The notes under the pieces were generated by a model that saw only the letters and a list, made by a program, of their open reading frames with translations, ran no database searches and had not been told where the DNA came from. Below are positions 30,921 through 49,820 of a stretch of DNA of 64,000 nucleotides, one piece after another. Position numbers and translations under genes: made by a program. The stretch covers positions 762,501 through 826,500 of the forward strand of contig NZ_AP018712.1 of the NCBI RefSeq assembly GCF_014701195.1, written 5' to 3'. Each line of letters begins with the position of its first letter. Within the stretch, counting starts at the first letter, position 1. The DNA comes from Tepiditoga spiralis (lineage in GTDB: Bacteria > Thermotogota > Thermotogae > Petrotogales > Petrotogaceae).

Positions 30921-30955
30921 TAAAAAGATATAATCCCAAAGCTACAGGGATTATA
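30921..30955 (-). terminator. Terminator of AAA/PD-(D/E)XK gene copy 1
   Basis: TATAATCCC/GGGATTATA arms with a nine-base loop; on minus TCTTTTT follows. The stem begins within the gene's stop codon. Confidence 0.82.
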
Positions 30956-32477
30956 TTTTTTCTATTTTGTATTCGTTTATATTTCTCTTTTCTGAGTTTA
31001 TGTTTATTCCTATTATGTAAATTTCTTTCCCTTTGTACTTTTCATAGTACTTCATTTCTTTTATTTGATTCAAAGCCTTTTCTGCACTTTTGTCTATCTT
31101 TATTTCCATTATGTATATAGTGTCTTCCTCTATTACTATATCGCTTCTTCCTAAGTTCGTTAATTCTTCTGCTGTTACGTTCAGTCCCGCTGATGCAAGT
31201 ATTGTGTATATCAATGAGTGATAGTAGCTTTCTTCTTTTTTATGCAAGTTGTATGGTATTGCACTTATTATTCTTTTTATTTCTTTTATTATTCCTTCTA
31301 TGTCTTTTTCATATATTCTTTCATATATTGTGGTTTCTATTTGTTCTATTTCTCTTATTCCATAGTTTGCTTCTAATATTATCTTTGAAAAGCTGTTCTT
31401 TACTTCTATATTTGGATAGTCTAATATGTACTTTTCCCTCAATCCTAATCTTTTTATTCCTTTAAAGGTCAAGTATCCTGCTTGTGTAAAGAATATACTT
31501 GCATTTGCTTCTTCTATTTCTCGTGTTGAAAAATCGAGTTCGCTCACTGGATACTTCACTAAGTCTTCATATCTTATCTTCTTCCCTTTTATGTATTCGT
31601 ACAAGAATGATGGTGATCCACTTTCAAACCAATAGTTTTGAAACTTTCTTTCATTAAAAAATCTTAATATTGAAAATGGATTGTATACACTATCTTCTCC
31701 ATCAAATGAAAATCCATTGTAGTACATCTTTAAGTTTTTTAATAACTCTTTTTCTTCCATCTTCATTTCAATTGCTGTTTCTTTTATGTGCTCTTTAAAG
31801 TTACTTTCTAACTCTTCTTGTGTATACCCCAACATCTGTGCGTATTTTTTATTCAACGATATATCATTTAAGTTGTTCAATGCAGAAAATACTCCTGTTT
31901 TTGTGAACTTTGTTATTCCTGTCATGAATACAAACTTTATGTATTCATCTTTTGATTTTATGCTCACATAAAAGTCTCTCAATATTTCTCTATACTTTTC
32001 TGCTTTTTCTTTGTTGTTTATATTGTCTAATATTGGTTTTTCATATTCATCTACTAATATTACTACTCTTTCTTTTTGGGATAGTTTTATTATTAGTTCA
32101 TTGAATGCAAACTTATAGTCTGTTTCTGTTATTTCTATTCCATTTCGCTTTCCTTCTAATTTTATTATCTTTGTTAGACTTTCTTTCATTCTTTCCACAT
32201 TATCTGTTGCTACATCTAAAAGGTTTATCCTTATTACTGGATACTCTTTGAACTCCCATTTGTCGTATATGTATGTTCCTTTAAATAAGTCTTTTTCTCC
32301 TTTAAATAGATAGTACAGTGTTGATATCGTTAAACTCTTTCCAAATCTTCTTGGTCGAGATAAAAAATAAAATTTTCCACTTGTTATTAATTCATATAAA
32401 TATTTTGTTTTATCTATGTATATATAATCTGTTATTAATTCTTTAAAGTCTTGTACTCCTATTGGTAGTTTTTTCAT
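30951..32477 (-). CDS. AAA-ATPase/PD-(D/E)XK nuclease family protein, copy 1
   Basis: 508 residues from the ATG at 32477 (GAGGTG six bases upstream); a GTG three codons earlier lies in that site. The N-terminal AAA-ATPase-like domain (PF09820 type) starts LPIGVQDFKELI. Walker A is the family variant FLSRPRRFGKSLTI near residue 42, and Walker B is VVILVDEYEKPI near 140. The C-terminal PD-(D/E)XK nuclease domain ends with SDIVIEEDTIYIMEIKID (D..E-x-K). Two paralogs lie at 47733-49529 and 57548-59257. The biological role of the family is not established; defence or mobile-element behaviour is suspected. Confidence 0.85.
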   Translation of the reverse strand: MKKLPIGVQDFKELITDYIYIDKTKYLYELITSGKFYFLSRPRRFGKSLTISTLYYLFKGEKDLFKGTYIYDKWEFKEYPVIRINLLDVATDNVERMKESLTKIIKLEGKRNGIEITETDYKFAFNELIIKLSQKERVVILVDEYEKPILDNINNKEKAEKYREILRDFYVSIKSKDEYIKFVFMTGITKFTKTGVFSALNNLNDISLNKKYAQMLGYTQEELESNFKEHIKETAIEMKMEEKELLKNLKMYYNGFSFDGEDSVYNPFSILRFFNERKFQNYWFESGSPSFLYEYIKGKKIRYEDLVKYPVSELDFSTREIEEANASIFFTQAGYLTFKGIKRLGLREKYILDYPNIEVKNSFSKIILEANYGIREIEQIETTIYERIYEKDIEGIIKEIKRIISAIPYNLHKKEESYYHSLIYTILASAGLNVTAEELTNLGRSDIVIEEDTIYIMEIKIDKSAEKALNQIKEMKYYEKYKGKEIYIIGININSEKRNINEYKIEKI

Positions 32478-32575
32478 CTTTATCACCTCTAATCTTTATT
32501 CATTTTATTATATCATAATCTCTAATAAAAGAATATTCTATATATATTTTTTTCACAAAAAAAGTGTTAACCATT

Positions 32576-32818: not shown

Positions 32819-35800
32819 ATTTTTAACCCTCTAAGGATAGATAAGGACAAAATTTTACTCTAAATAAACAAACAACAAAATATTTTGTTTTTAACCCTCT
32901 AAGGATAGATAAGGACAATCTAACAAAAGACGCAGAGTTTAAAATGACAACAGGAGGTTTTTAACCCTCTAAGGATAGATAAGGACTGATATGGTAGCTT
33001 TATTAAAACGTAGTAGTAAATATGAGTTTTTAACCCTCTAAGGATAGATAAGGACTAATATAAACGTGTCAGCAAACCAATTAGGGGTTACTGAAGTTTT
33101 TAACCCTCTAAGGATAGATAAGGACGAAGTTGAAAAACAACAAATTATGCAAAACGCACAAGTTTTTAACCCTCTAAGGATAGATAAGGACTGTATCTAC
33201 ATTAAGAGGTAAGGCAATTACACCTTAGTTTTTAACCCTCTAAGGATAGATAAGGACTTGAGTACTACGTTTGGAAACGGGGGAATATTTCCCCAAGTTT
33301 TTAACCCTCTAAGGATAGATAAGGACAAAATTTTACTCTAAATAAACAAACAACAAAATATTTTGTTTTTAACCCTCTAAGGATAGATAAGGACGAAACA
33401 TTGAAAAAGTTACCTTACAACATGTTAAATAATGTTTTTAACCCTCTAAGGATAGATAAGGACTTACTGCAACGGAAATTATTTTGGAGCCGGAGATTAT
33501 TAGTTTTTAACCCTCTAAGGATAGATAAGGACGTAGCGAATATACGGCAAATGCTGAAACCATGGAAGAGTGTTTTTAACCCTCTAAGGATAGATAAGGA
33601 CTCTCTTAGATGAGGAAGATAAAAAAAAGGAGGCTAAAAAAGTTTTTAACCCTCTAAGGATAGATAAGGACAATAATATCCTCTGCAGTTATAAAAAATT
33701 TTAAAAAGTTTTTAACCCTCTAAGGATAGATAAGGACGTATAACGGCAATAGCCGTTATGCCCAAGCTTGGGCAAAGTTTTTAACCCTCTAAGGATAGAT
33801 AAGGACATGTTAGTAAAGTTGAATATATGAGTTTTATGTTTGCAAAGTTTTTAACCCTCTAAGGATAGATAAGGACAAAAAGGAAATACTTGATATGGTA
33901 GCTTTATTAAAAGTTTTTAACCCTCTAAGGATAGATAAGGACAAATTTAAATTTATAGTACTTTTCCAATACATATATTGTTTTTAACCCTCTAAGGATA
34001 GATAAGGACGATATTTTCTGGTCTCATCAACAAATTCCAGAAGAAGTTTGTTTTTAACCCTCTAAGGATAGATAAGGACAAATTATAAATAGTGCTCAAA
34101 CTTACTTTGATATTGAGTTTTTAACCCTCTAAGGATAGATAAGGACTTGTGTTCCTAGGAACATACGCTCTTGCCAAAGCAAAGTTTTTAACCCTCTAAG
34201 GATAGATAAGGACACAGAAACACATTTACACGAATGCAAAGGGTTTATAAGTTTTTAACCCTCTAAGGATAGATAAGGACAAAAAAAAGTTATACGATAG
34301 TTACTTTTAAAATAGAGAAGTTTTTAACCCTCTAAGGATAGATAAGGACAATTTCCAACCTTGTTTTTATTATACCGTTATTTATTAAGTTTTTAACCCT
34401 CTAAGGATAGATAAGGACGTGCATACATTTTGACAAGCACTATAAAAAAATTTAAAAAGTTTTTAACCCTCTAAGGATAGATAAGGACCAAAGAAATGGA
34501 ATGCATGACAACAAAATTCATTTTAGTTTTTAACCCTCTAAGGATAGATAAGGACAAAAAATGTTTAAAGTTGATGATTCTCTTATTGGTATAGTTTTTA
34601 ACCCTCTAAGGATAGATAAGGACCAAAAGTACACTTAGAAGAACAATTACAAAAAAGAGAGTTTTTAACCCTCTAAGGATAGATAAGGACCCATTCAAAA
34701 TTAATTTGTATTGGTACATCAAATTTTGGTTTTTAACCCTCTAAGGATAGATAAGGACATGGGAAGATTTCAACTGCATCTATTAAATACTTCCCAGTTT
34801 TTAACCCTCTAAGGATAGATAAGGACTATTGCTAATAAGATAGTTGCTAATCTCCAAAATAGTTAGTTTTTAACCCTCTAAGGATAGATAAGGACAAAAA
34901 TGGATACATTAATGATAAATATTCATAAAGGAGTTTTTAACCCTCTAAGGATAGATAAGGACCCAATCGGAAATTGGGATGTTTCTTCAGTCATCAAAAT
35001 GGTTTTTAACCCTCTAAGGATAGATAAGGACATTAGAACATGTAGCAGAAGATTTATTTTACAATCCAATGGTTTTTAACCCTCTAAGGATAGATAAGGA
35101 CAAGTATTTAACAACAAAGTTAATTCACTAAGTAATCAGTTTTTAACCCTCTAAGGATAGATAAGGACGAATTTAAAAGCAATTGAAATGAAAGATAGTA
35201 CCGCATGTTTTTAACCCTCTAAGGATAGATAAGGACCAAAACATGTTATAATTAAAAATATAGAGGAGAAAAGTTTTTAACCCTCTAAGGATAGATAAGG
35301 ACCTTTATACATTTAAATCATCCACCTTTAAAAGTTTTTGTTTTTAACCCTCTAAGGATAGATAAGGACGATGTAGAATTTTCATATATAAATTTTGAAA
35401 ATTTTAAGTTTTTAACCCTCTAAGGATAGATAAGGACTTGTTCCACCAAGAATTGCTCCAAGAGGTGCAGTTCCTGTTTTTAACCCTCTAAGGATAGATA
35501 AGGACAATTCTAAGCCCTTTATAGCCTCATACAGCGATTTTAGTTTTTAACCCTCTAAGGATAGATAAGGACAATTATTTCAAAAGAAGAAAATAAAAAA
35601 AAGATTTTCGAAGTTTTTAACCCTCTAAGGATAGATAAGGACAATAACCAGTAACAAATACTTAATAAAAGTGAAATGGTTTTTAACCCTCTAAGGATAG
35701 ATAAGGACTATTTATAGAACATGCTTGAAATGAATAGTTACGAAAAGAGTTTTTAACCCTCTAAGGATAGATAAGGACTAGTATGGATGATAAGCAGTTT

Positions 35801-35912
35801 AGTTCTGCTAATAACGTTTTTAACCCTCTAAGGATAGATAAGGACAAAAAGATAATAATGCTATTTATTATTTAGTATTCGAGTTTTTAACCCTCTAAGG
35901 ATAGATAAGGAC
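32819..35912 (-). CRISPR. CRISPR array, 46 repeats of 30 bases and 45 spacers
   Basis: As written on plus, the repeat is 30 bases, starting GTTTTTAACCCTCTAAGG and ending ATAGATAAGGAC. All 46 copies are identical except the first (32819), where base 1 is A instead of G. Spacers are 36-40 bases. I assign the direction as minus. A consensus promoter reads into the right end, the degenerate repeat is at the left end, the cas operon has the same direction, and most spacers are sense-coding on plus, so minus-strand crRNAs would be antisense. Read that way the repeat starts GTCCTTATC and the likely 8-base crRNA handle is TTAAAAAC. The newest spacer would be 35846-35882. Spacers 1 and 8 are identical; spacers 3 and 16 overlap by 22 bases. 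Confidence 0.97.
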
Positions 35913-35945
35913 AGTAACTATATTTCTTTTAAAATATGCATTAAA

Positions 35946-35974
35946 ATTATAACACACCAAATTTTTGGTGTCAA
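35946..35974 (-). promoter_or_regulatory. CRISPR leader promoter with palindromic operator-like spacer
   Basis: On minus, TTGACA (35974-35969), 17 bases, TATAAT (35951-35946), both perfect, 33 bases from the last repeat. The palindrome ACACCAAA-TT-TTTGGTGT (35954-35971, plus strand) fills the spacer and overlaps the -35 box, as a repressor operator would. The predicted start is near 35939. Confidence 0.88.
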
Positions 35975-36375
35975 ATAATACTACATTTTTTTATTACAAA
36001 AAAGAAACTTAATATTACAAAAAAATCTTTTTGCTTTTTTTTACTTCTATAACACAGTGTTTTTAGGTATTACATGGTTTTACTAAAATGTAATATTTTT
36101 TACAATTGTAATATTTGTTTTTGGAAAAATAAAAAGTTTACATAAATTTGTTCTTTTTTTAGAACTTATTTAAAATTCAAAAAAACAGTAAAAATCAGGT
36201 TTTAAGATTTTAAGTTATCTTTATTTTAAAATTTATTTATAATAAAATATAAAAATCAACAATAGAATAAAAATTCTATTTTTTTGTTACTTAATAAATT
36301 TGTAATTTTATGAGTATATACCCCTTGAATATTTTATACATATTCATAACAATTATATCATACTTTTTATAATAA
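35975..36375 (-). other. AT-rich CRISPR leader region without genes
   Basis: About 400 bases without a convincing reading frame between the cmr operon terminator and the array promoter. The motif TGTAATATT occurs at 36089-36097 and 36107-36115 and its complement AATATTACA at 36011-36019. ATTACAAAAAA occurs twice (near 35993 and 36014). These could be protein-binding sites used in spacer integration or transcription. Confidence 0.55.
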
Positions 36376-36404
36376 ATATCCTTCCAAAAGTTTTGGAAGG
36401 ATAT
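36376..36404 (-). terminator. Terminator of the cas6-cmr operon
   Basis: A 14-bp near-perfect palindrome centred on CCAAAAGTTTTGG with CCTTCC/GGAAGG arms, directly after cmr6; a weak T-rich tail (TTATTAT) follows on minus. Confidence 0.75.
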
Positions 36405-36415
36405 AAATAAATTAT

Positions 36416-37414
36416 TTAATTTTTTATTTCTTCAAATCTTCCATATCCATTTGATGTTTTTGCACCCAATCCATATATTTCTAAAAATTCTAAAAATAGT
36501 TCTCTAGTTTTTTCTATTTTTTGTTCATCAAATTTTTTTCCATTTATTATTAAATCAAATCTAAACTCACTATCTTCTCCAACACTTAAATAAGACAATG
36601 GATTTGGATTATATACATCATTTGGAGGTTTTTTACCTGAATAATATTCTCCAAAGTGTGGTGTTTGATATTCTTCAAATATTTTCGGATTATTTAATGG
36701 GATTGCTTCTAAAAATTCTATCTTTCCACTTTCTTCTTGAGTTCCAAATATAATTTTTATCAAATCTTTTAGTTCTTGTTTTTCTTCAAATTCATTTTTT
36801 GTTTCTAAGTAATGTCTAAATGCACCTTTTATTGCACTTCCTGGTATTGTTGGAATTCCATAATTTCTATTCCAGTAAAATCCTATTTCGTCCATTGAAG
36901 GTATTCCTGCTCCTATTAAAAATGGTGTTGTGTTTTTTGCTATTATTGTGATTGATTCTTTTTTTTGAATATTCAATAATGATCTAAGCATTTTTATTCT
37001 TATTGATTTTAATTTTTTAAATAATCCATCAAATTCTATTGCTTTTATATTTTCTTTGTATATTATTTTACTGAATTTTTTTTCATCTAAAATTCTCGAT
37101 TCGTTTACACTTTTTAATATATTTAATGTAAATCTTTCTTCTTTTTTTATTTGTAACTTTGAATTTTTTTGATTACTAACTACGTCTGAACGAATTTTTG
37201 TTATTTGTATTTCTTTTAGTTTTGGATTTACTTTATCGGCTATTTCTTTGCTAACTTCTTGTCTTTTTTTTTCGTCAAAATTCTTTTTTATACCTAATTC
37301 TTCTTTTATTATTTCAAAATCTTTTTTTAAATTTTTTTGTATTCTAAAAGAGAGTTTATCATAGTATAAAGAGGCATTTTTTATGTCTTTGATTGTATCA
37401 TTATAAAATTCCAA
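36416..37414 (-). CDS. cmr6: Type III-B RAMP protein Cmr6
   Basis: 332 residues. RAMP features: PFLIGAGIPSMDEIGFYWNRNYG near residue 170, IPTIPGSAIKGAFRHYLE near 192, and the C-terminal glycine-rich loop EIYGLGAKTSNGYGRFEEI. It caps the 3' end of the crRNA in the Cmr complex. The N-terminal 120 residues are an extended helical, basic region. The start is TTG at 37414 after AGGAGGTG. Last gene of the operon. Confidence 0.9.
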   Translation of the reverse strand: MEFYNDTIKDIKNASLYYDKLSFRIQKNLKKDFEIIKEELGIKKNFDEKKRQEVSKEIADKVNPKLKEIQITKIRSDVVSNQKNSKLQIKKEERFTLNILKSVNESRILDEKKFSKIIYKENIKAIEFDGLFKKLKSIRIKMLRSLLNIQKKESITIIAKNTTPFLIGAGIPSMDEIGFYWNRNYGIPTIPGSAIKGAFRHYLETKNEFEEKQELKDLIKIIFGTQEESGKIEFLEAIPLNNPKIFEEYQTPHFGEYYSGKKPPNDVYNPNPLSYLSVGEDSEFRFDLIINGKKFDEQKIEKTRELFLEFLEIYGLGAKTSNGYGRFEEIKN

Positions 37415-37430
37415 ATTTTTTCACCTCCTA

Positions 37431-37877
37431 TTAATCTTTATCTTTTTCTATAAATATATCTGCATATCTTCTATACCAACCAACAAAGCTCAATATTCTA
37501 TCTTGAAATTCTTTTAAATTTCCTTTTTCTAAAAATTCTAAAAAATTATTATAATTATCTTTTTCAATATTTTCAAAATCATAAAATTCTTCAAAAAATG
37601 CACATAAATCATCTAAAATATATTCAATATATTTTTTTTCATCAGCTTTTTTATTTTTTTCTTTGTCTTTTTTTTCTGATTTCGGATTCATCTTAGAACG
37701 ATAAAAAATAACTGTTCCATACAAACCATTTTGAATAATCATAGAACCCAAACCTTTTATTGTTGATTTATAAGCTTTTAATAATTTATCTTTATTTTCA
37801 AAATTTTCACAGTTTTCTAATGTATTTAAAATACAGTCTTTTGCCAATTCTTGTACACTTTTATCTATTTTTAGCAT
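37431..37877 (-). CDS. cmr5: Type III-B small subunit Cmr5
   Basis: 148 residues, helical. It starts LKIDKSVQELAKDCILNTLENC and contains YKSTIKGLGSMIIQNGLYGTVIFY near residue 50, the typical Cmr5 core where an alpha-helical protein pairs along the target RNA channel. A Lys-rich loop (KKDKEKNKKADEKK) interrupts it near residue 83. It lies between cmr4 and cmr6. Confidence 0.88.
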   Translation of the reverse strand: MLKIDKSVQELAKDCILNTLENCENFENKDKLLKAYKSTIKGLGSMIIQNGLYGTVIFYRSKMNPKSEKKDKEKNKKADEKKYIEYILDDLCAFFEEFYDFENIEKDNYNNFLEFLEKGNLKEFQDRILSFVGWYRRYADIFIEKDKD

Positions 37878-37890
37878 AAAATATCATCTC

Positions 37891-38739
37891 CTATAAATAT
37901 TTTATATAAGTAAATCCTTTTCCTATAGTTGATTTACCTCCTATATTTACAAATTGTTTATCTGTTTCTTTTGTTAGTATATCAAGTCCATGATCTTTTA
38001 ATAATGTTTTTACTATAAAGTACATTATTGTATCTTGTGGTAAGTATTCTTCATACCAAAGACCTCCTGTTTTTTTATCAACAGTTCCTGTTTCATCTAT
38101 TTTTATTCTTGCCATAATTTCTGTAGATCCTTTTACAAAAAATCTAAAATCTTCATCTGATATTATTAATACTCTTTCTTTTAATTTATTTTGTAATGTT
38201 TCATCTGGTAATATTTTTTTTATTGAATTTAAAAAGTCTACTAATTCTTTTGAATATTCTGGAGTTACTTTATATTCTTCTAAATTTATTTCAGTTTTAT
38301 TTGTTGAATAATATTCTTTGTCTGATTTTATAGTTTTTAATAAATTACTAACTTTTGTTTCTAAATCTTTGTTTCCAAACATTTTAAAAAGTATATTTAC
38401 TCTGCTTAATATCATAGGACACGTAATCCATACAAATCCTTCTGTAATACTTCTTACTGGAAATAAAAATATTTTAGCTTCTGAAAAAGATACGCTTCCT
38501 GATTGATCTTCTGTTCCTTTTTCTTTTTCTTTTGGACTTCCAAAGATTTTTATATCTTTATCTCCTTTAAATACTTCTTCAAATTCATTTCTAAATGCAC
38601 CTTTTATTCCAGATATTATAGGGAAGTCTGTATGTACTTCTCTTTGTATTGGTAAATCTACTACTCCCGAATCAAATCCTTTTCCTGCATGTAATTGAGA
38701 AACTGCATATAAAAATCCTATTTTACCATTTTTACTCAT
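37891..38739 (-). CDS. cmr4: Type III-B backbone protein Cmr4 (RNA-cutting subunit)
   Basis: 282 residues. VSQLHAGKGFDSGVVDLPIQREVHTDFPII near residue 13, ISGIKGAFRNEFE near 42 and FVNIGGKSTIGKGFTYIKYL at the end define Cmr4. An Asp in the HAGKGFDSGVVD region is the expected catalytic residue for cutting target RNA at six-base steps. It forms the helical backbone of the complex. AAGGAGG precedes the ATG. Confidence 0.92.
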   Translation of the reverse strand: MSKNGKIGFLYAVSQLHAGKGFDSGVVDLPIQREVHTDFPIISGIKGAFRNEFEEVFKGDKDIKIFGSPKEKEKGTEDQSGSVSFSEAKIFLFPVRSITEGFVWITCPMILSRVNILFKMFGNKDLETKVSNLLKTIKSDKEYYSTNKTEINLEEYKVTPEYSKELVDFLNSIKKILPDETLQNKLKERVLIISDEDFRFFVKGSTEIMARIKIDETGTVDKKTGGLWYEEYLPQDTIMYFIVKTLLKDHGLDILTKETDKQFVNIGGKSTIGKGFTYIKYL

Positions 38740-38762
38740 ATATAGTCCTCCTTCGCGTGTTA

Positions 38763-39767
38763 TTATTTTTTTAATTCTATGTATTTTCCAAAACCATAAT
38801 AATCATATTTGTCTGTTAATGTATTAATTTCACCTTTTGTATAATAACATGATCCAACTGGTACTACTTTCATTAATTCACCAGGTTTATTTTCGACGCC
38901 ATTCCAAAAACCTATTGTTTCTGGTTTGTAATTTGCTATTGCAATTATATTTTCATTATTTTTAGGTAAGATTCCACTTTCAATAAAACTTGGAGTTAAT
39001 GTATATAATATTTTTTCTTCATCATTAACTTTATCAAAGATATTAGTTTCTATTTCTATTATTTCAAGTCTTGCTAATTTTCCTTTTGTTCCTAATTTTA
39101 TTGTGTTATACTTTTCTAATAATTTTAATTCATCTTTTTCTACAAAGAAACAAAAACCAGAATTTTCTTCAAATCTAAAGTAGTTTAATGAATAAAGGCC
39201 GCCTTTTTTTGTGTATCTTTTACCTTTTTCAATTTCTATTCCTATTTTTCTTTCTATTTTATATGGTATATTTGATGGTGTATTTTTTTCTGTGTCTATT
39301 ATATTTACATATCCTTTTTTTAATTCTTCTAATTCTTTTAAGGTTATATAGTTTTTGTTTAAATCATCTAAATTATTCATTTTTTCATATCTTAATCCGT
39401 TTAATTCTTTTGTACCTATTTTGAATTTTATATTTTCATCTATATATGCTTTATATATTTTTTTTGAATGTGTTTCATTTGATTCTTTTTCTTTTTTTAA
39501 TATTGCTGGTTTTTTAAAAAATATTTCTGTTTCACCGTTATTTTGTTTAAATACAAATGGTCCTGTTATATCTAATTTTCTTTCTTTCATTAATGTTGAT
39601 ATTTCTTTTGCTGATTTTTCTTCAAAGTTATATAAATTCCCATATATTGCACCTAAAAATGTTTTTAAATTAGGAAAATGTGTATCTTCACTTGTTGAAA
39701 ACGATTTAGCTGCTCTAAATGCAACCCAATCAAGTGGTTTTATTAATAATAATTTTTTTTTCATCAT
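38763..39767 (-). CDS. cmr3: Type III-B RAMP protein Cmr3
   Basis: 334 residues. It starts KKLLLIKPLDWVAFRAAKSFS, followed by HFPNLKTFLGAIYGNLY near residue 30, which is typical of Cmr3. It binds the 5' handle of the crRNA with Cmr2. The double ATG at the start overlaps the cas10 stop (ATGATGA), so translation is coupled. Confidence 0.9.
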   Translation of the reverse strand: MMKKKLLLIKPLDWVAFRAAKSFSTSEDTHFPNLKTFLGAIYGNLYNFEEKSAKEISTLMKERKLDITGPFVFKQNNGETEIFFKKPAILKKEKESNETHSKKIYKAYIDENIKFKIGTKELNGLRYEKMNNLDDLNKNYITLKELEELKKGYVNIIDTEKNTPSNIPYKIERKIGIEIEKGKRYTKKGGLYSLNYFRFEENSGFCFFVEKDELKLLEKYNTIKLGTKGKLARLEIIEIETNIFDKVNDEEKILYTLTPSFIESGILPKNNENIIAIANYKPETIGFWNGVENKPGELMKVVPVGSCYYTKGEINTLTDKYDYYGFGKYIELKK

Positions 39768-42220
39768 TCACCACCTCTTTTTGGTTTTTTAGCTGAATAT
39801 TCTAATTCTTCTAATATATCTAATATATCTTTTAATTCTAAATTTTTATTTTTACATAAGTTTAATATTTTTTTAGTTGGTTCAATTAAGTTTCCTAAAT
39901 TCATTCTTTCTTTTATTATAAATGGAACAACTTTTTTAATAAATTCTTCATCTTTTAAAATTCTTTTATTATTTGAAAAACACAAACTTTCATATTCATA
40001 TTTTAATTTACTTATAAATGCTTGTTCAGATTTTTTATTTTCTTCTAATTTACTTATTAGACTATTAGCAGTTTCTATTATGTCTTTTTTTGGAACTATA
40101 TTAATATCCCATTTTGATTTAGCTATTTTTATTTTTCCAGATCCCCTTATTGAAGATATTGCAAATGAATCTCTGTCTACTTTTTTTTGTTTGTTATCTT
40201 TATCCATTTCAACTTCATAATTACTTTTAGCTATTTTTTCAAGTTCTCTTGCTTTGTTTAATGCTAATTTTAAATTGTATGATGGATTAAATGTCAATAA
40301 TCCTGCACTCATAGTTGCTCTATGTCCCATCATATTTGAAATCATTTTTCCATCTTTGTACATATATCCTTTATTGAATTTTAAGTTTTCTAATTCTAAA
40401 TTATCTACACCAGAATATGCTTTTCTTATATCGTTTGCTGCTTGAGCTAACTTATTAGAAGGTAAGATGGCAAGAACATCATCACCACCTGCATATATTA
40501 ATGTTCCTTTATAATTGTTTATTATTTTTGGAACTAATTTTGAAAATTCATTCAATGTTCTTGATATTGTTCTTTGATAAGAAGGTGTTATAAATTGAAG
40601 TTCTTCCAATTTTTCTAAGTATTTTTTATCTATTCTTTCAAGACGACTTATAGCATTTTTATGTAATCGTTGATAAAGAACAGGAGCTTTTTTACCTGAA
40701 ATCCATTCTCCCATTTTATCTCCATCCATCATTAATATTGATGCATTATAATCTTTTGAAATTTCTGTTATATCATCTTTAGTATTTTTTTTAGTATTTT
40801 TTAAACTTTTACTTGCTTCTTCATACAATGTTTCTTTTTCAAGATAATTTGGTAAGTATCTTTTTATTAAAGTAATTGCAGATATATTTTCAGTTTTTTC
40901 TTCGTCATCGTATATTGTAATTTCTTTTATCAAAGCTTTTTCATTTCCAGATATTTCATCGCCAGGGTTTGAATTTTGTTCTATATAGCCAATAAAATCT
41001 CTTGTTGTTTTTCTAATTCCTGATTTTATCCCTAATAATTCTGAGTTATATGAATAATATTGATAATCTTTAACAGTATATGTGTTTTCTAATTTTTCAA
41101 AGCTTTCTTTTAAAGGAGTAAGATCTATTCCTGTATAATCTTTATATTGCATATTTAAAGAATTAAAATTTTCTAAATTTTGAACTGTTGCTACTATAGT
41201 TGGAAATTGTTTTACTTGCTTTTTAAATTCTTTTGTTATTTGTTCTTTACTTAGTCCATGTTCTGTAATTAATTCAAAGCTAACATTACTTTTTAATTCA
41301 TTCAATGTATTATTATTAATTTTTTCTAAAAAGAAATTTATAATATTATCTCTTTCAAGTAATATCCATTCTTTAATCTTATTTATTACTAATTCAACAT
41401 CACTTTTTGGAATTATAAAAGAAAATACATTTGGAAGAGATGCTACTGCAGGGTCTATTTCTAACTCTTTTGTATAAAATCCCAAATCTTTTGCAACAAA
41501 GTAATTGTCCCTCATTGAAGGAAATATAATACAATCATATCCATAATTTTGTCCAACATATTTAATTCCTTGATAAGTTAAGTATGAAAGTAAATAACTT
41601 CCATTTCTAAGATCTGATATTTTTCTTCCTGCTGCTATAAAGTCTTGTACTGGGCCAATTGAAATCATTACTATTGAATAATTTTCTGTTGTTACACTTG
41701 AAAATGCTGCAGTTGTATCTAAATGATCTATTATTGATACATCTGGTACTCTTGTGTCTGCTGGTAATAAATATGATTGTTCTACTGATTTTGGTAGATA
41801 CCACCAAATGTAATTGTATAATTTTTTTGCACTTTTTACATCATTAACATCAAGTTTTTCTTTTTCTATATATTTTTTTATATCTTCATAAAATTTATTT
41901 GATTGAGATAATATATCTTTTTTATTTAATTGTTTATCTAATATGTCTTTACTTACTTTTTCACCAGTTAAAGGATGAATTATATAAAATTCATTACTAT
42001 TAACATAAACTCTTTGTTTATCTGAATTTGTTTGTTCATTTGGAAGTGGTATTCTTTCAATAGAACTGGCAATTACATCTGCTTTTGGTTTATTTGGAGT
42101 TATATTTAATTCACTTATTCTTTTATTTTGTAATGCTTCATGAGTTTTTATTGTATATACCTTTTCCACTGGATCGTGTAATAAAGCATTTATTTTTCTA
42201 TGCCAAAATTTAATAGCCAT
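39764..42220 (-). CDS. cmr2: Cas10/Cmr2 with HD and GGDD motifs
   Basis: 818 residues. HD at residues 15-16 (INALLHDPVEK) gives the single-strand DNA nuclease motif. A first palm domain follows ISIGPVQDFIAAGRK near residue 190, then LMMDGDKMGEWISGK near residue 495 and TLIYAGGDDVLAILP near residue 577, the cyclase palm with an intact GGDD. Both the nuclease and the cyclic-oligoadenylate synthase activities are therefore predicted. No CARF-domain effector gene is seen in this window. GGAGGG precedes the ATG. Confidence 0.95.
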   Translation of the reverse strand: MAIKFWHRKINALLHDPVEKVYTIKTHEALQNKRISELNITPNKPKADVIASSIERIPLPNEQTNSDKQRVYVNSNEFYIIHPLTGEKVSKDILDKQLNKKDILSQSNKFYEDIKKYIEKEKLDVNDVKSAKKLYNYIWWYLPKSVEQSYLLPADTRVPDVSIIDHLDTTAAFSSVTTENYSIVMISIGPVQDFIAAGRKISDLRNGSYLLSYLTYQGIKYVGQNYGYDCIIFPSMRDNYFVAKDLGFYTKELEIDPAVASLPNVFSFIIPKSDVELVINKIKEWILLERDNIINFFLEKINNNTLNELKSNVSFELITEHGLSKEQITKEFKKQVKQFPTIVATVQNLENFNSLNMQYKDYTGIDLTPLKESFEKLENTYTVKDYQYYSYNSELLGIKSGIRKTTRDFIGYIEQNSNPGDEISGNEKALIKEITIYDDEEKTENISAITLIKRYLPNYLEKETLYEEASKSLKNTKKNTKDDITEISKDYNASILMMDGDKMGEWISGKKAPVLYQRLHKNAISRLERIDKKYLEKLEELQFITPSYQRTISRTLNEFSKLVPKIINNYKGTLIYAGGDDVLAILPSNKLAQAANDIRKAYSGVDNLELENLKFNKGYMYKDGKMISNMMGHRATMSAGLLTFNPSYNLKLALNKARELEKIAKSNYEVEMDKDNKQKKVDRDSFAISSIRGSGKIKIAKSKWDINIVPKKDIIETANSLISKLEENKKSEQAFISKLKYEYESLCFSNNKRILKDEEFIKKVVPFIIKERMNLGNLIEPTKKILNLCKNKNLELKDILDILEELEYSAKKPKRGGE

Positions 42221-42231
42221 TATTTCCCTCC

Positions 42232-43569
42232 TTAATCTACTATTTTTAAATTTTTTAAAGTATCAAATACCATTTTTAGATTTTCGTTTCCTTTAACTTT
42301 AAATTCATTTTTTCCTTTATTAAATTTAATATCTTCTATTTTTTTCCCATTTACAAAGCTATTTTTATTTGTAATTTTACTTCTTATTAAGCTAATTCTA
42401 TACCTGTATTTTCCATTTTCTTTATATATTTTTATAAACATTTGAGAAGCTTTTCTTCCTTCACTATTAGATAGAGTATAATTTCCACTATTTATACCTT
42501 TAAATTGTCTATCTCCAATTTTATAATTAATAGGTAATCCTAAAAAAGATTGTACAAATTGAATAGATTGATTTTCATGATTTTTTATTGAGTATATACC
42601 TTTTCTAAACGAATCTTCATCTAATTTTTCATTTGATTTTATTTTTCCTTCTTTTATAACATATTTTCCTCTAAGCACTTTTTTTAATTTTATATACATT
42701 CCTACATTTAATTTTAACGAATTATCTTTATTTAAATATCTTGTTTTTGGATCTGGTTTGTATAAATAATCATATAATTCAAGAAAAGTATCAAATTTAT
42801 TTTTTGATTCTAATATTACATATTTTTTAGAAAGTAATGTTGGATATGTAGGGCTAGATGTAAAATTTTGTATATCATAATCAATATTGTTTAAATCATA
42901 AAAATTCTTTTTTAAAGTTTTATCTTCAAAGATATACTTTTCATTATTATAATTTTTTTTCATATTTTCTATTATTTCTTTTAAAACTTCTTCTAAATTT
43001 TTTATTAAGTTACTTTTTGTATTAATTATTTTATATTCATTAGATTTTATAATTTCAAAACTTCCAAATCCTTTTCTTGATTTAGCTCCAAATCCTCCTA
43101 AATAAGAGGTAAGATTCAATAGATAAAATAAAAGCTTATCTAATCCACTTATATTTTTTTTAATAATAAACTTTATATTTATTTTTGAATTTTCTTTTAA
43201 ATAATATCTATCTTCTTGTCCATATAAAGCATATTTATTATATTTATCATTTGTTAAAGACTTTCCTTGTTTATCTGAAATATCTTTTTTATCATATTTC
43301 ACAAGTACATCAAATGGTGATTTTATTTCTGTTGATCCAAATATATAACTTTCTATATCTTTTAATAATTTATAATTCCAAAAACATTCTTCACCTTTTA
43401 ATTTTGAATTTCCATTATTATCTACAATATTTACAACTCTTGGTAGTATTGCTCTAAACCAAAATCTAAGTACACCTCTAACACTTTGTGGAGTTAATGC
43501 AAATTTTTTATCCCCTCTTCCAGAAAACATAGGAGATATAGTTTTTATTTCTATATCCAATTTTTTCAA
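42232..43569 (-). CDS. cmr1: Type III-B RAMP protein Cmr1
   Basis: 445 residues from TTG at 43569, placed after GGAGGTG; a GTG at 43578 overlaps that site. IKTISPMFSGRGDKKFALTPQSVRGVLRFWFRA, split over residues 10-40, then CFWNYKLLKDIESYIFGST and LGGFGAKSRKGFGSFEI are Cmr1 signatures. It contacts the 3' end of the crRNA with Cmr6. Second gene of the cas6-cmr operon. Confidence 0.92.
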   Translation of the reverse strand: MKKLDIEIKTISPMFSGRGDKKFALTPQSVRGVLRFWFRAILPRVVNIVDNNGNSKLKGEECFWNYKLLKDIESYIFGSTEIKSPFDVLVKYDKKDISDKQGKSLTNDKYNKYALYGQEDRYYLKENSKINIKFIIKKNISGLDKLLFYLLNLTSYLGGFGAKSRKGFGSFEIIKSNEYKIINTKSNLIKNLEEVLKEIIENMKKNYNNEKYIFEDKTLKKNFYDLNNIDYDIQNFTSSPTYPTLLSKKYVILESKNKFDTFLELYDYLYKPDPKTRYLNKDNSLKLNVGMYIKLKKVLRGKYVIKEGKIKSNEKLDEDSFRKGIYSIKNHENQSIQFVQSFLGLPINYKIGDRQFKGINSGNYTLSNSEGRKASQMFIKIYKENGKYRYRISLIRSKITNKNSFVNGKKIEDIKFNKGKNEFKVKGNENLKMVFDTLKNLKIVD

Positions 43570-43589
43570 TTTAATCACACCTCCATAAT

Positions 43590-44306
43590 TTATATTGTTT
43601 CAATCATTCCAAATCCTTGTGAATTTCTTAATCCTAATCCCCAATCAAAAGCTAATTTTAATACTTCGTTATTACCATATATTTTGTATGTTCCTTCCCA
43701 AGCTTCAAAGGTTGTTGTTTTGTATTTTAATACTCTTTTATTAGTTGGGTTAATTCTTTGTGGAATAATATTAAAGGTTTCTGTATTAATTCCCAATGCC
43801 TTTCCTTTTGTAGACATATTATATTTAATAATTTCACAAAACTCTGGATCTTTTGGATTGTATCTCAGTAACTTTCTTTCTCCATTTACTCTTAATACCT
43901 TTTCATATACTAATATTGGAGATAATGTTTTAACTAGTGCATAATTATCAAAAGTGTATCTTAATCTTCTTATACTACTAATGTTCAAAAAGTTATTTCC
44001 TATTCTTATATTGTTTAATTCTGTTAATTTTTCTAAAAATTCTTCCAATAAAATTTCAAAGGGTGAAGAAAAATATATCCATATTTCATCTCCAAAATAA
44101 ATACTATTATCTTTAACTTCATATCTTTTGCAAAATATTTTAGAATAAGAGAAAGGCTTCATAGTCTTAGAATCAACTATTATACCTTCATCATGTAAGT
44201 AATCAAATTTTTTAGTTACCAAGTTATAAAATAATCCTTGTAAATAATACTGATAAGAAATTGGTAATACAATATTTTTACCTGATAAGTTAATTTTCAC
44301 TCTCAA
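43590..44306 (-). CDS. cas6: CRISPR repeat endonuclease Cas6
   Basis: 238 residues from TTG at 44306, with AGGTGA six bases upstream, which gives the usual start (M)RVKINLSGKNIVLPISYQYYLQG. The C-terminus LAFDWGLGLRNSQGFGMIE is the glycine-rich RNA-binding loop of Cas6. It cuts the array transcript inside each repeat to give crRNAs with an 8-base handle. It has its own promoter upstream and heads the cmr operon. Confidence 0.92.
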   Translation of the reverse strand: MRVKINLSGKNIVLPISYQYYLQGLFYNLVTKKFDYLHDEGIIVDSKTMKPFSYSKIFCKRYEVKDNSIYFGDEIWIYFSSPFEILLEEFLEKLTELNNIRIGNNFLNISSIRRLRYTFDNYALVKTLSPILVYEKVLRVNGERKLLRYNPKDPEFCEIIKYNMSTKGKALGINTETFNIIPQRINPTNKRVLKYKTTTFEAWEGTYKIYGNNEVLKLAFDWGLGLRNSQGFGMIETI

Positions 44307-44350
44307 TTTAATCACCTGATATATTAATTTTTTTTAATAACTCACTTATT

Positions 44351-44379
44351 ATTATATCATTTAAATTTTAATTTATCAA
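44351..44379 (-). promoter_or_regulatory. Promoter of the cas6-cmr operon
   Basis: On minus, TTGATA (44379-44374), 17 bases, TATAAT (44356-44351), about 45 bases before cas6. It separates interference genes from the cas1-cas2 unit. Confidence 0.8.
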
Positions 44380-44391
44380 TAATTGTTTTTA

Positions 44392-44655
44392 TTATAAAAA
44401 TTTTTCATATTTATTTTTCTCAATACCAGTAATATCAAAGGTTAAATTTTTCTTTGTTAAAGTTTCAAAGTATATTATGCTATCTTCATTTTCTTTAATT
44501 ATAATTTTTAGTTTTCTTTTTAATTCATTAAACTTCTTTTCAGTAATAGACCCTTCAAAAACTGAATTTTGTATCCAATTAAGATATTGTTTTATAATTT
44601 TATGAACCTTTCCTACTCTTTTTGTATTTATGTCATACATTAATACAATATACAT
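44392..44655 (-). CDS. cas2: Cas2, second tandem copy
   Basis: 87 residues from the ATG at 44655, which has AAAGGAGCG eight bases upstream; an upstream in-frame ATG lies inside the preceding cas2. YIVLMYDIN at the start carries the conserved Asp, and QYLNWIQNSVFEGSIT is a Cas2 signature. It is roughly 60-65% identical to the copy at 44702-44965, with the same length and end (EKNKYEK-x-L). Cas2 dimers bridge two Cas1 dimers during spacer integration. Confidence 0.93.
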   Translation of the reverse strand: MYIVLMYDINTKRVGKVHKIIKQYLNWIQNSVFEGSITEKKFNELKRKLKIIIKENEDSIIYFETLTKKNLTFDITGIEKNKYEKFL

Positions 44656-44674
44656 TTTTATCGCTCCTTTAATT

Positions 44675-44701
44675 AAAATAAAAGCAGGAGTTATCCTGCT
44701 T
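44675..44701 (-). terminator. Attenuator-like hairpin between the two cas2 genes
   Basis: AAGCAGGA/TCCTGCTT arms with a four-base loop, beginning right after the first cas2 stop and followed on minus by TTATTTT. It probably reduces expression of the second cas2. Confidence 0.75.
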
Positions 44702-44965
44702 CTACAAAATTTTTTCATATTTATTTTTTTCTAAACCAATTACATTATAAAATATATCTTGTTTTCTTGTAGTCTTTATATATACAACACTATCTTCATT
44801 TGCTTTTGTCATGGAATTTATTCTATCTTTTAATTCATTTAATTTTTTTTCAGTAATGGATCCTTCAAAAACTGAATTTTGTATCCAATTAAGATATTGT
44901 TTTATAACTTTATAAACTTTACCTACTCTTTTTTCATTTATATCATATACTAAGATTACATACAT
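44702..44965 (-). CDS. cas2: Cas2, first tandem copy
   Basis: 87 residues starting YVILVYDINEKRVGKVYKVI, with the conserved Asp in YDIN and QYLNWIQNSVFEGSIT. It starts four bases after the cas1 stop. It is closely related to the second copy downstream, so the pair arose by tandem duplication. Either homodimers or a heterodimer could form; both keep the key residues. Confidence 0.95.
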   Translation of the reverse strand: MYVILVYDINEKRVGKVYKVIKQYLNWIQNSVFEGSITEKKLNELKDRINSMTKANEDSVVYIKTTRKQDIFYNVIGLEKNKYEKIL

Positions 44966-44969
44966 ATTA

Positions 44970-45944
44970 TCAAACTTCTTCCATATACGGAATATAGTTA
45001 GTACTTTTTTTATTAATATATTTTTTTAATCTGTATAAATCAATTCCAATTAATTCCTTATATGATACATATTTTTTTAAGTTTTTTAAATAGATTGTTT
45101 GAGATAATTTTTCATCATATGATTTAATAAATTTTTGTTTTCCACTTTTATTTAAATAGATTCCATGTTTTTTATTTTCAAAATCTGATTTTTTAAATTC
45201 ATTTTCTTTAAACATATCAAAAACTATTCTATCAACAATGAGTGGCTTAAAAATTTCTGATATATCTAAGCTTAATGCATTTTTTCTATCATTTGAATGT
45301 AAATAACCTATTGAATTAAATAAGCCAACATTATTTATCGTTCTTACACATTCTGAATAAAAAACACTATTTCCAAAACTTATAACAGAATTTATTTCAT
45401 TTTCTGGTGGTCTTTTAAGTCTTTTTTCAAATTTAAAATTATCATTATTTATTATTTTATCAAAAAATGAATAATAATATCTTCTAAATTCTGCTTCTAT
45501 TATCATTAATATGTCTACTGATTCTATTTCGTTTAATTTTAAAATCATATTTTTAATTTTTTCTTCATCATATTTCATTTTATACAACTTAAAATTTGAC
45601 CTCATATTATTCATTGCTGCAAATAAAATCATTTTTACTAAATTTATTCTTTCTTCGTATATTTGATAACTGTTAACTTGATTAATTAAAGTTTTCCCTT
45701 CATAATTTAGATTATCTGGTATATAGCTTCCTAAATAGTTTTTATAATAAGAAAACATATGCATTACAATTTTATATTTTGATAAAAGGTGTAAAAAGCT
45801 ATCATTAAACTTAACATTTGAAAACACTTTTATATCTTGAATATTGTTTATTGGTAGTATTTTTTTACGTTCTTTTGTAATAAATTCTATTGTATTATTT
45901 TTTCTTTTTAATTCACCATTTGAAAATATATAAATATTATCCAT
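44970..45944 (-). CDS. cas1: CRISPR integrase Cas1
   Basis: 324 residues, the usual length for a stand-alone Cas1, with no reverse-transcriptase fusion. The likely metal ligands are E150 (MIIEAEFRRYYY), H216 (SIGYLHSNDR) and D227/E230 (ALSLDISEIFKP). It begins YIFSNGELKRKNNTIEF, the N-terminal beta domain. It integrates new spacers with Cas2. TAGGAGGTG precedes the ATG. Confidence 0.95.
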   Translation of the reverse strand: MDNIYIFSNGELKRKNNTIEFITKERKKILPINNIQDIKVFSNVKFNDSFLHLLSKYKIVMHMFSYYKNYLGSYIPDNLNYEGKTLINQVNSYQIYEERINLVKMILFAAMNNMRSNFKLYKMKYDEEKIKNMILKLNEIESVDILMIIEAEFRRYYYSFFDKIINNDNFKFEKRLKRPPENEINSVISFGNSVFYSECVRTINNVGLFNSIGYLHSNDRKNALSLDISEIFKPLIVDRIVFDMFKENEFKKSDFENKKHGIYLNKSGKQKFIKSYDEKLSQTIYLKNLKKYVSYKELIGIDLYRLKKYINKKSTNYIPYMEEV

Positions 45945-46044: not shown

Positions 46045-46920
46045 TTAAAATGAAAAACCCATTGTAAACCAAGGAACAACATAAATAGTAAATAATCCAA
46101 TTGAAAAAGAATTATCTTTATTTATATATTCTATACCAACACCACCATAAGGAACTATTAATCCTAAAGTACCCCAATACCAATAAGAGTTCCAAGCATC
46201 ATATTTTAAAGGTTCAAAATAATTTCTTTCACTATATCCAATGCCTAAATTATATCCACTGTATCCTATAATTTTTCCATCTTTATTTAATTTTTTATTT
46301 GTAAAAAAACTCAAAGTTGCTATATCAATCTTTTCAATTTTAGTATCAGAATAATTTAAATAATCAGAAGTATTAGGAATAGTTGTTTTTATAATAATGT
46401 TCTTTTTTATATCATTAATCATATAAGTAAAAAGTAATTTTCTATTTTTTATATTACTATTTATAGATTTTATCTTCCATCCACTACCTAAGCCAAATAA
46501 ATTATTATATTTATTTGTAGAAAGATTTGTATAATAATAAATATGAGATTTAGGAACTGCTATTTCATTAAATGTATCATTAGGCAATATTACAGATGGA
46601 ATTTGATGTAAATCTGAACTAATATATTTTTGATTTTCATGAATTAATACAACGTTATTATTATAGTTATCAGTAAATGTACATTCATCCCATACTATTT
46701 TTAAAACAGAATTTGTTAAATTTAAAATTTTTAAACGTAAAACAGTTTGATTAAAAATTCCATTTTTTACATTATCAATGTATATTTTTAATTTTATATC
46801 ATTGTTTTCAAAAGTTTTTAATAAATAAGGATAATTAATTGATGTAGAATTATTAGTTGTTTTTTCACCAAAAAATAGTAAAGTTGTTAATAAAAATAAT
46901 ATTAATACTACTTTCTTCAT
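46045..46920 (-). CDS. Secreted protein with C-terminal envelope domain, unknown
   Basis: 291 residues. A signal peptide (KKVVLILFLLTTLLFFG) is followed by a beta-rich middle part and a C-terminal 90-residue domain with KIIGYSGYNLGIGYSERNYF, AWNSYWYWGTLGL, PYGGVGIEY and a final MGFSF. The same domain makes up almost all of the 120-residue protein at 49869-50231. Alternating polar/aromatic strands and a terminal Phe are what outer-membrane beta-barrel proteins show, so location in the outer envelope is inferred. Its start region is nearly identical to that of the next gene upstream. Confidence 0.6.
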   Translation of the reverse strand: MKKVVLILFLLTTLLFFGEKTTNNSTSINYPYLLKTFENNDIKLKIYIDNVKNGIFNQTVLRLKILNLTNSVLKIVWDECTFTDNYNNNVVLIHENQKYISSDLHQIPSVILPNDTFNEIAVPKSHIYYYTNLSTNKYNNLFGLGSGWKIKSINSNIKNRKLLFTYMINDIKKNIIIKTTIPNTSDYLNYSDTKIEKIDIATLSFFTNKKLNKDGKIIGYSGYNLGIGYSERNYFEPLKYDAWNSYWYWGTLGLIVPYGGVGIEYINKDNSFSIGLFTIYVVPWFTMGFSF

Positions 46921-47732: not shown

Positions 47733-49529
47733 TTATAAATTTCTTTTTCTTATTTTTTTTAATGTAACTAATGATATTCCAGTTGATTTTGATACTAAGT
47801 TAATATCAGCGCCATTTTTTAAAAGATTTAAAGCTATTTTTTCTATCTCTGTTAATTCAACATCTTTATCCAAATTACTAACAATTTCAATTTCTTTTTT
47901 ATCAAAGGATATTGCTACTTTTATTATATCGTTTATTCCATAACTTTTTATTTCTTCTTCATACTTCTTTTCATTTATTTGTTTTAGTCCATTTTGTGCA
48001 CTGTCTTTTAAACTTTTATCTTCATCTCTATTGTACTTTTTAAACTCTATTATTATTCCTTTATCTGTTTTATCTTTTGGAATTAATATAACATCAGCTC
48101 TTCCAAGTCCTGTTTCTCTATTACTCTTTATTATGTACTCTTCTTTTAATCCAACACTCATTCCAAGTATTAATCCATGATAAAACCTTTCCGGTTCTTT
48201 TCCACTAACATCAAAGTAACTCAATGTATTCATCGTTAAATCTTTAAATTGGTCTGTAAAGGTCTTTATTCTTCCTACTTTTAAATTCAAAAGCATATTT
48301 TCAATACTTATATTTGATTCTCTCAACATATTTCTAACTGTTTGTACAAAAAAATCTTTTACTTCTTCATTTGGTATCTTTACTTTATACATTGTTATAT
48401 TATTTTTTCTTTTTTTACTCGTCCACTTTAAGTAACCACTAAATAAAAATAATGTCCAAATTGCGCTTTCACTATTTAAGTTTAAATCACCATAAACCAT
48501 TGTTTCTATTATTTCGCACTCTACTTCTTCTCCATTTATTAATTTTTCTACACTATCTTTTATATTAACAGTTCCTTCTTTTATTAACTTTCTTATTAAG
48601 TAATTTCCACTCGTATTCATCCAATATGGTCTTATCTTTTTTTCGTCTACTAAGTTTATTATAGAAAAAGGATTGTATATCTCTACTCCACCAAAGTTAT
48701 AACCATTGTACCAATCTATAACTTCATTTTCTTCATATTCAAGTTCATAATACTTTAATGTTTCTTCTACTTCTTCTTTAGTTAAACCATACTTATCATT
48801 GAATAGTTCATTCAATACAGTAGAAACCTTTAAGTTATTCACACCAGTAAAGATACTTTCTTTAGATACTCTTGTTATACCAGTAAGAACTGCTTTTTCA
48901 AGATATACATTGTCTTTTAATGCCATGCCAAATAAGTTACCAATTAAAGATATTATTTCATCATAGTAACCATGTAAGTAAGCTTGTTGAATGGGAGTAT
49001 CATATTCATCTATTAATATTATTACCTTTTTACCATAGTATCTTTCCATATACTTTGATAAGTTTCTTATAGAGTTTTCATACTTTGCATCATCTGCTGT
49101 TTCTGAAATTATTGATTTATATACTGATTTTTCCTTTTCATCCAATACATCTAAAACATACTTATGATCAATGTATAAAGATGAAAGTTCCATGGCTAAT
49201 AAGTCATGCATCTTTTTTAAGTTATTAGACTTTAAATCTTTAAAGGTGATGTATATAACTGGATATTTATTTAAATGTTTTTCTATTATATTTTTTTCTT
49301 TATATATCTTTAAATCTTTAAAGAGGTGTTCGTTGTTTTGAGTAATATCAAAAAAGTACTTCATCATAGATTGACTGAGAGTTTTACCAAACCTTCTTGG
49401 TCTTGTTATTAATAAAACATCTCCACTTTCAATAACTTCTTTGATTAACAAACTTTTATCTACAAAATACATATTGTCTTCTATTAATGATTTAAAATCA
49501 CTTCTTCCTATTGGAAGTCTTTTTTTCAT
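47733..49529 (-). CDS. AAA-ATPase/PD-(D/E)XK nuclease family protein, copy 2
   Basis: 598 residues from the ATG at 49529 after GAGGTG. LPIGRSDFKSLIEDNMYFVDKS starts it; Walker A is LLITRPRRFGKTLSQS, Walker B is VIILIDEYDTPIQQA near residue 165. The nuclease motif is GRADVILIPKDKTDKGIIIEFKKY (D..E-x-K), here in two pieces around residue 500. Unlike copy 1 it ends with a helix-turn-helix-like tail (LLKNGADINLVSKSTGISLV) found on many Rpn/PD-(D/E)XK proteins. The -10 region TATGATATAAT and leader resemble those of copy 1. Confidence 0.85.
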   Translation of the reverse strand: MKKRLPIGRSDFKSLIEDNMYFVDKSLLIKEVIESGDVLLITRPRRFGKTLSQSMMKYFFDITQNNEHLFKDLKIYKEKNIIEKHLNKYPVIYITFKDLKSNNLKKMHDLLAMELSSLYIDHKYVLDVLDEKEKSVYKSIISETADDAKYENSIRNLSKYMERYYGKKVIILIDEYDTPIQQAYLHGYYDEIISLIGNLFGMALKDNVYLEKAVLTGITRVSKESIFTGVNNLKVSTVLNELFNDKYGLTKEEVEETLKYYELEYEENEVIDWYNGYNFGGVEIYNPFSIINLVDEKKIRPYWMNTSGNYLIRKLIKEGTVNIKDSVEKLINGEEVECEIIETMVYGDLNLNSESAIWTLFLFSGYLKWTSKKRKNNITMYKVKIPNEEVKDFFVQTVRNMLRESNISIENMLLNLKVGRIKTFTDQFKDLTMNTLSYFDVSGKEPERFYHGLILGMSVGLKEEYIIKSNRETGLGRADVILIPKDKTDKGIIIEFKKYNRDEDKSLKDSAQNGLKQINEKKYEEEIKSYGINDIIKVAISFDKKEIEIVSNLDKDVELTEIEKIALNLLKNGADINLVSKSTGISLVTLKKIRKRNL

Positions 49530-49820
49530 TTTTATCACCTCGTTTTCTCGTTTTATTATATCATAGTCTTCAATAAAAAAGAATTTAATAATTTTAAATT
49601 ATAATGTTTTCAGCATTTTTTTATAGTTAAAATCTTTGAAAGAAATAATCTAAGAAGAATCAAGAACCATAATTATATTTCTTTTATAATAAGCTTTAAA
49701 ATTATACTTAATCAAAAATTTTGTAATGGATAATACTATATTTTTCTTGAAAATCTTTATTTGCATAATACCTATACATAATTTAGTCATAATAATTTTG
49801 GTTTTGACTTTTACTAGAAA
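49530..49820. other. Intergenic stretch, promoter of copy 2 only
   Basis: On minus an extended -10 (TATGATATAAT) lies about 30 bases before copy 2. The rest is AT-rich. A 62-codon frame on minus runs through a terminator and has no ribosome site, so I do not call a gene here. Confidence 0.5.

Follow-up and report, generated by a model that had tools for sequence, protein, structure and literature searches.

A strong leader promoter of the type III-B CRISPR array of Tepiditoga spiralis carries a perfect dyad, an unproven candidate operator

Introduction

Does the palindrome in the promoter that faces the type III-B CRISPR array of Tepiditoga spiralis make this promoter a switch, or is the promoter simply a strong start site for crRNA synthesis? 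CRISPR leaders are described as AT-rich regions holding a promoter that drives pre-crRNA synthesis (PMC8616872), and from the sequence alone a preliminary description of this DNA had proposed two things: that the array is transcribed from right to left, and that a dimeric repressor can close its promoter by binding a dyad that overlaps the -35 box. Here, we followed up both proposals in the window, by which we mean the whole 64-kb stretch of DNA analysed, and in the complete genome (2,502,404 bp searched), together with the genomes of relatives.

Results

The array promoter and its surroundings

The promoter, read on the minus strand from 35974 to 35946, consists of TTGACA CCAAAAATTTGGTGTGT TATAAT (in full, TTGACACCAAAAATTTGGTGTGTTATAAT), with both hexamers perfect and a spacing of 17. 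As read from the sequence, the -35 hexamer occupies positions 35969–35974 and the -10 hexamer, immediately preceded by the TG of an extended -10, positions 35946–35951, which leaves a gap of 33 bases (35913–35945) up to the last repeat, ending at 35912; in these respects, the preliminary description was accurate to the base. Perfect promoters are common in this genome: the window holds six with spacers of 15–19 (0.3 expected from a Markov shuffle), and 36 with a spacing of 17 were found genome-wide, whereas the reversed control had none. Promoters of perfect or near-perfect consensus are likewise present in three other CRISPR leaders, belonging to unrelated arrays near homologous cas1 genes, and in the leader of another Petrotogaceae array; in two of the former and in the Petrotogaceae leader they lie at similar distances. 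Finding such a match in a leader is therefore unsurprising by itself.

The array (32819–35912, minus strand) comprises 46 repeats and 45 spacers, with the crRNA-sense repeat GTCCTTATCTATCCTTAGAGGGTTAAAAAC, and the promoter is held by the repeat-proximal part of its leader (35913–35990, minus strand), between the cas genes and the array and at the non-degenerate end of the latter. Rightward from the array, and all on the minus strand, follow cmr6, cmr5, cmr4, cmr3, cas10/cmr2, cmr1 and cas6 (36416–44315) and then the adaptation genes, two cas2 and one cas1 (44392–45944). Given that Cmr1 to Cmr6 with Cas10/Cmr2 are all present, the locus belongs to type III-B, even though Cmr3 scores slightly under its curated cut-off (98.5 vs 100.4 bits) while the remaining Cmr proteins pass. 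The two cas2 genes (44392–44718 and 44702–44965) overlap in tandem beside the single cas1. Upstream of cas6 lies a near-perfect promoter, TTGATA-17-TATAAT (44351–44379, minus strand), suggesting that the effector genes can have a transcript of their own, separate from cas1–cas2. Adjoining cas1, a 291-aa protein is encoded at 46045–46920 for which Pfam, PHROGs, NCBIfam and PADLOC gave no match.

Direction of transcription

Several features argue for transcription from right to left, as had been proposed. The sole altered repeat among the 46 is the leftmost one, in which a single base is changed, a pattern expected of the leader-distal end. When aligned with the repeats of relatives, the minus-strand repeat fitted better than the plus-strand repeat in 19 of 20 cases (16.0 vs 13.9 of 30 positions). 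Moreover, the cas genes run in this direction too, with the array on their downstream side, an arrangement shared by nearly all oriented array loci adjoining related cas1 genes, and a homologous relic leader described below has the same orientation.

The spacers point the same way. Using a codon model built from the genes of the window, we assigned the coding sense to the plus strand for 32 of 44 spacers and to the minus strand for 12 (25 vs 2 among the clear cases), so that minus-strand crRNAs would be antisense to the mRNA of their targets. Type III interference requires pairing between the crRNA and the mRNA. This pairing is deduced from coding statistics, as the search for spacer targets in phages and plasmids returned weak matches alone (E-values of at least 0.02) and no confident protospacer. 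The same test gave no significant bias for most other arrays of the family; the same strand bias was seen in the arrays of this genome that are linked to PrimPol, Cas1 and Argonaute, and in two further arrays to which neither a type nor a direction is assigned. Within the array itself, the leader-distal spacer (32849–32886) is identical to the eighth (33327–33364), and spacers 3 and 16 share overlapping sequence, as if derived from one target.

The PrimPol-linked arrays belong to a third CRISPR locus of this genome (L075:2591-10008 and L074, at about 2.02–2.04 Mb), which has 36-base repeats and encodes Cas6, a CRISPR-associated PrimPol, Cas1 and Argonaute. In the assumed direction, the spacers of its two L074 arrays are strongly antisense-biased (26 vs 4), and those of the L075 array less so (12 vs 6).

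A left-to-right array, for which the site at 35946–35974 would make antisense RNA, is very improbable: the plus-strand repeat likewise starts with GTTTTTA and ends with C, which makes the repeat ends alone ambiguous, but the degenerate repeat at the left, the coding bias of the spacers, the repeat alignment and the co-direction of the cas genes all oppose it, and within 180 bases to the left of the array the best promoter match reaches only 8 of 12 positions (4+4). As judged from the sequence, right-to-left transcription is thus well supported, and the promoter appears to point into the array in the crRNA sense. We conclude that the type III-B array very probably has its main promoter at this site in its leader and is read from right to left; this degree of confidence covers the promoter and the direction, and does not include an operator.

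A perfect dyad between the promoter hexamers

The spacer of this promoter contains the perfect 8-bp dyad ACACCAAA-TT-TTTGGTGT (35954–35971), which shares three bases with the -35 box and whose arms match at all 8 positions, just as the preliminary description had it. Among the 36 perfect promoters of the genome, the CRISPR leader dyad is the only one with an 8-bp arm. How readily could such a dyad arise by coincidence or neutral drift in an AT-rich spacer, given that the -35 box supplies the outer ACA for free? In simulated spacers with the hexamers held fixed, an arm of at least 8 bp occurred with a probability of 0.010 per promoter, corresponding to 0.37 expected over all 36, which is compatible with coincidence. 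However, requiring at least three G/C per arm lowered this value to 0.00012 per promoter and 0.004 over the 36, a threshold that was chosen after seeing the dyad. The palindrome is real, and may well not be due to pure chance. The failure of the dyad to be kept in the relic leader or in the leaders of relatives, as detailed below, favours coincidence, and overall we consider this reading close to an even prospect.

Conservation of the leader and its dyad

The only homologous leader that we found is a paralogous relic in the same genome (49649–49745, minus strand), which retains part of one repeat. Its -35 region reads CCATTA and the dyad is absent, with 5 of the 8 dyad pairs kept, mostly in the A/T core. 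Comparing the live and relic leaders, we observed that the island formed by the -35 box and the spacer matches at 10 of 23 positions, as opposed to 48 of 55 elsewhere (Fisher p = 0.00013), whereas the repeat-proximal 40 bases and a block upstream of -35 are conserved between both copies. From this comparison, the island appears to change independently of the remaining leader, which implies neither that one copy represents the older state nor that the dyad is under selection. The preliminary description had held that absence of the dyad from an otherwise conserved leader would speak against its operator. The relic does lack it, but is a weak test of conservation, since the loss extends to the -35 box and to the greater part of the repeat. 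The relic leader lies upstream of an AAA-ATPase/PDDEXK_9 gene (47733–49538), and a second such gene (30951–32486), likewise arranged, adjoins the live array; this pairing of gene and array suggests an old duplication.

Among 41 relatives and 103 Thermotogota genomes, searches for homologous leaders yielded the same-genome relic alone, plus short AT-rich matches. One of the candidates considered, at 2026850, was rejected as a leader homologue, being short, AT-rich and most probably part of a coding gene. When GTDB genomes were scanned for cas1, the nearest match had 43% identity. In a survey of 56 leaders from arrays close to related cas1 genes, the best promoter match was overlapped by a dyad of 7 bp or longer in two; both of these dyads are AT-rich, unlike the dyad at 35954–35971, which itself was not found in the leaders of relatives.

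Could the dyad be an operator?

Alternatively, the dyad could be a lineage-specific operator at which a dimeric regulator covers the -35 box and the spacer, blocks the polymerase and stops the production of crRNAs independently of the cas genes. The perfect 8-bp arms with three G/C each, the centring of the 18-bp site in the spacer and its uniqueness among the 36 perfect promoters fit this reading. So does the strong divergence between the two leader copies, which is confined to the island of -35 box and spacer, as would be expected of a control element specific to one copy.

The distribution of the site in the genome argues against an operator. The preliminary description had looked to copies of the dyad elsewhere, but across the 2.5-Mb genome no second site with at most one mismatch was found, and hence neither a regulon nor a repressor gene regulating itself through such a site. 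Sites with two mismatches number six genome-wide, as compared to one in the control, and the context of four was inspected: two are copies of a single sequence found where two reading frames meet, one lies within a reading frame and one is intergenic, so that these sites fall mostly inside reading frames or at their boundaries. No candidate regulator gene was found near the CRISPR-cas locus, and together with the missing second site this speaks against the common design of a self-regulated repressor. Likewise, the genome encodes no Csa3-type CARF-HTH protein above the cut-off; there were only sub-threshold HTH matches, the best of which proved ArsR-like on recheck and was discarded as a Csa3-type regulator. 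Taken with the loss of the dyad from the relic leader, these results make the operator a tentative reading, and neutral coincidence is at least as likely. The right-to-left array of the preliminary description is thus supported, while its dimeric repressor closing the promoter is the weaker proposal, the site being single-copy, the dyad not kept in the relic and no local regulator having been found.

Two further roles for the dyad were considered. As RNA, it could form a hairpin in read-through transcripts of the cas operon that helps to insulate the array promoter. On the minus strand it is indeed terminator-like, with a 7-bp stem and a 4-base loop (-10.9 kcal/mol when folded with its flanks). 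However, the stem is weak, the T-run is poor (GTTATAATTT) and the fold z-score is only -1.8, and a far stronger terminator-like hairpin (36376–36404, minus strand, -16.3 kcal/mol) already follows cmr6 and sets the cas mRNA apart from the leader. As the dyad lies upstream of the start site, its hairpin would also be outside the array's own transcript. We therefore regard this role as improbable. It is also quite improbable that the dyad has no part in transcription control and serves instead as a place where the machinery of spacer integration docks: leaders do carry sites for integration factors, such as IHF in type I-E systems (PMC8616872), but the leader blocks conserved between the two copies exclude the dyad.

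Discussion

The site at 35946–35974 is best described as an ordinary, strong CRISPR leader promoter that carries an unproven, lineage-specific candidate operator. Judging from the sequence, RNA polymerase carrying the housekeeping sigma factor would start about 26 bases ahead of the first repeat, at the predicted start site, and move from right to left; the resulting pre-crRNA would be cut by Cas6 into guides that are predicted to be complementary to the mRNAs of invaders. Like CRISPR leader promoters in general (PMC8616872), the T. spiralis promoter lies within the leader, where it would drive pre-crRNA synthesis, but it differs from them in the perfect 8-bp dyad of its spacer, with three G/C in each arm.

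As for the candidate operator, the nearest precedent is MM_0565, a dimeric CARF-wHTH protein that binds the CRISPR leaders of Methanosarcina mazei (PMC7465815). The likeness to what is proposed for the T. spiralis dyad consists in a dimeric DNA-binding protein acting at a CRISPR leader. The two differ in that the site of MM_0565 has neither a defined motif nor a measured effect on array transcription, and in that T. spiralis yielded no Csa3-type CARF-HTH protein above the cut-off. Silencing by H-NS differs from control at the candidate dyad in being a matter of nucleoid binding to AT-rich DNA, with no compact perfect operator. H-NS and LRP are described as repressors of CRISPR-cas in Escherichia and Salmonella, with H-NS also binding the array leader (PMC10013973, PMC8616872); here, the shared idea is the repression of CRISPR-cas transcription. 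Dedicated CRISPR regulators are known from Sulfolobus, namely Csa3a and Csa3b, yet the footprints described for them are on cas promoters (PMC7480081), the promoters concerned are archaeal, and no counterpart was found in T. spiralis. In a limited search of the literature, we came across no account of a CRISPR array promoter that contains a compact perfect operator. Among the forms that control by the candidate operator could take, a dedicated dimeric repressor of host or phage origin that reads this single dyad and gates the supply of type III-B crRNA separately from the cas genes is an unlikely one.

If the dyad is an operator, control of type III-B crRNA production in this organism would act on the array itself, and our limited search of the literature found few examples of such a control point. 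Even without an operator, the locus is a clean case in which the direction of an array can be read from the sequence, including the bias of its spacers toward guides that would be antisense to mRNA.
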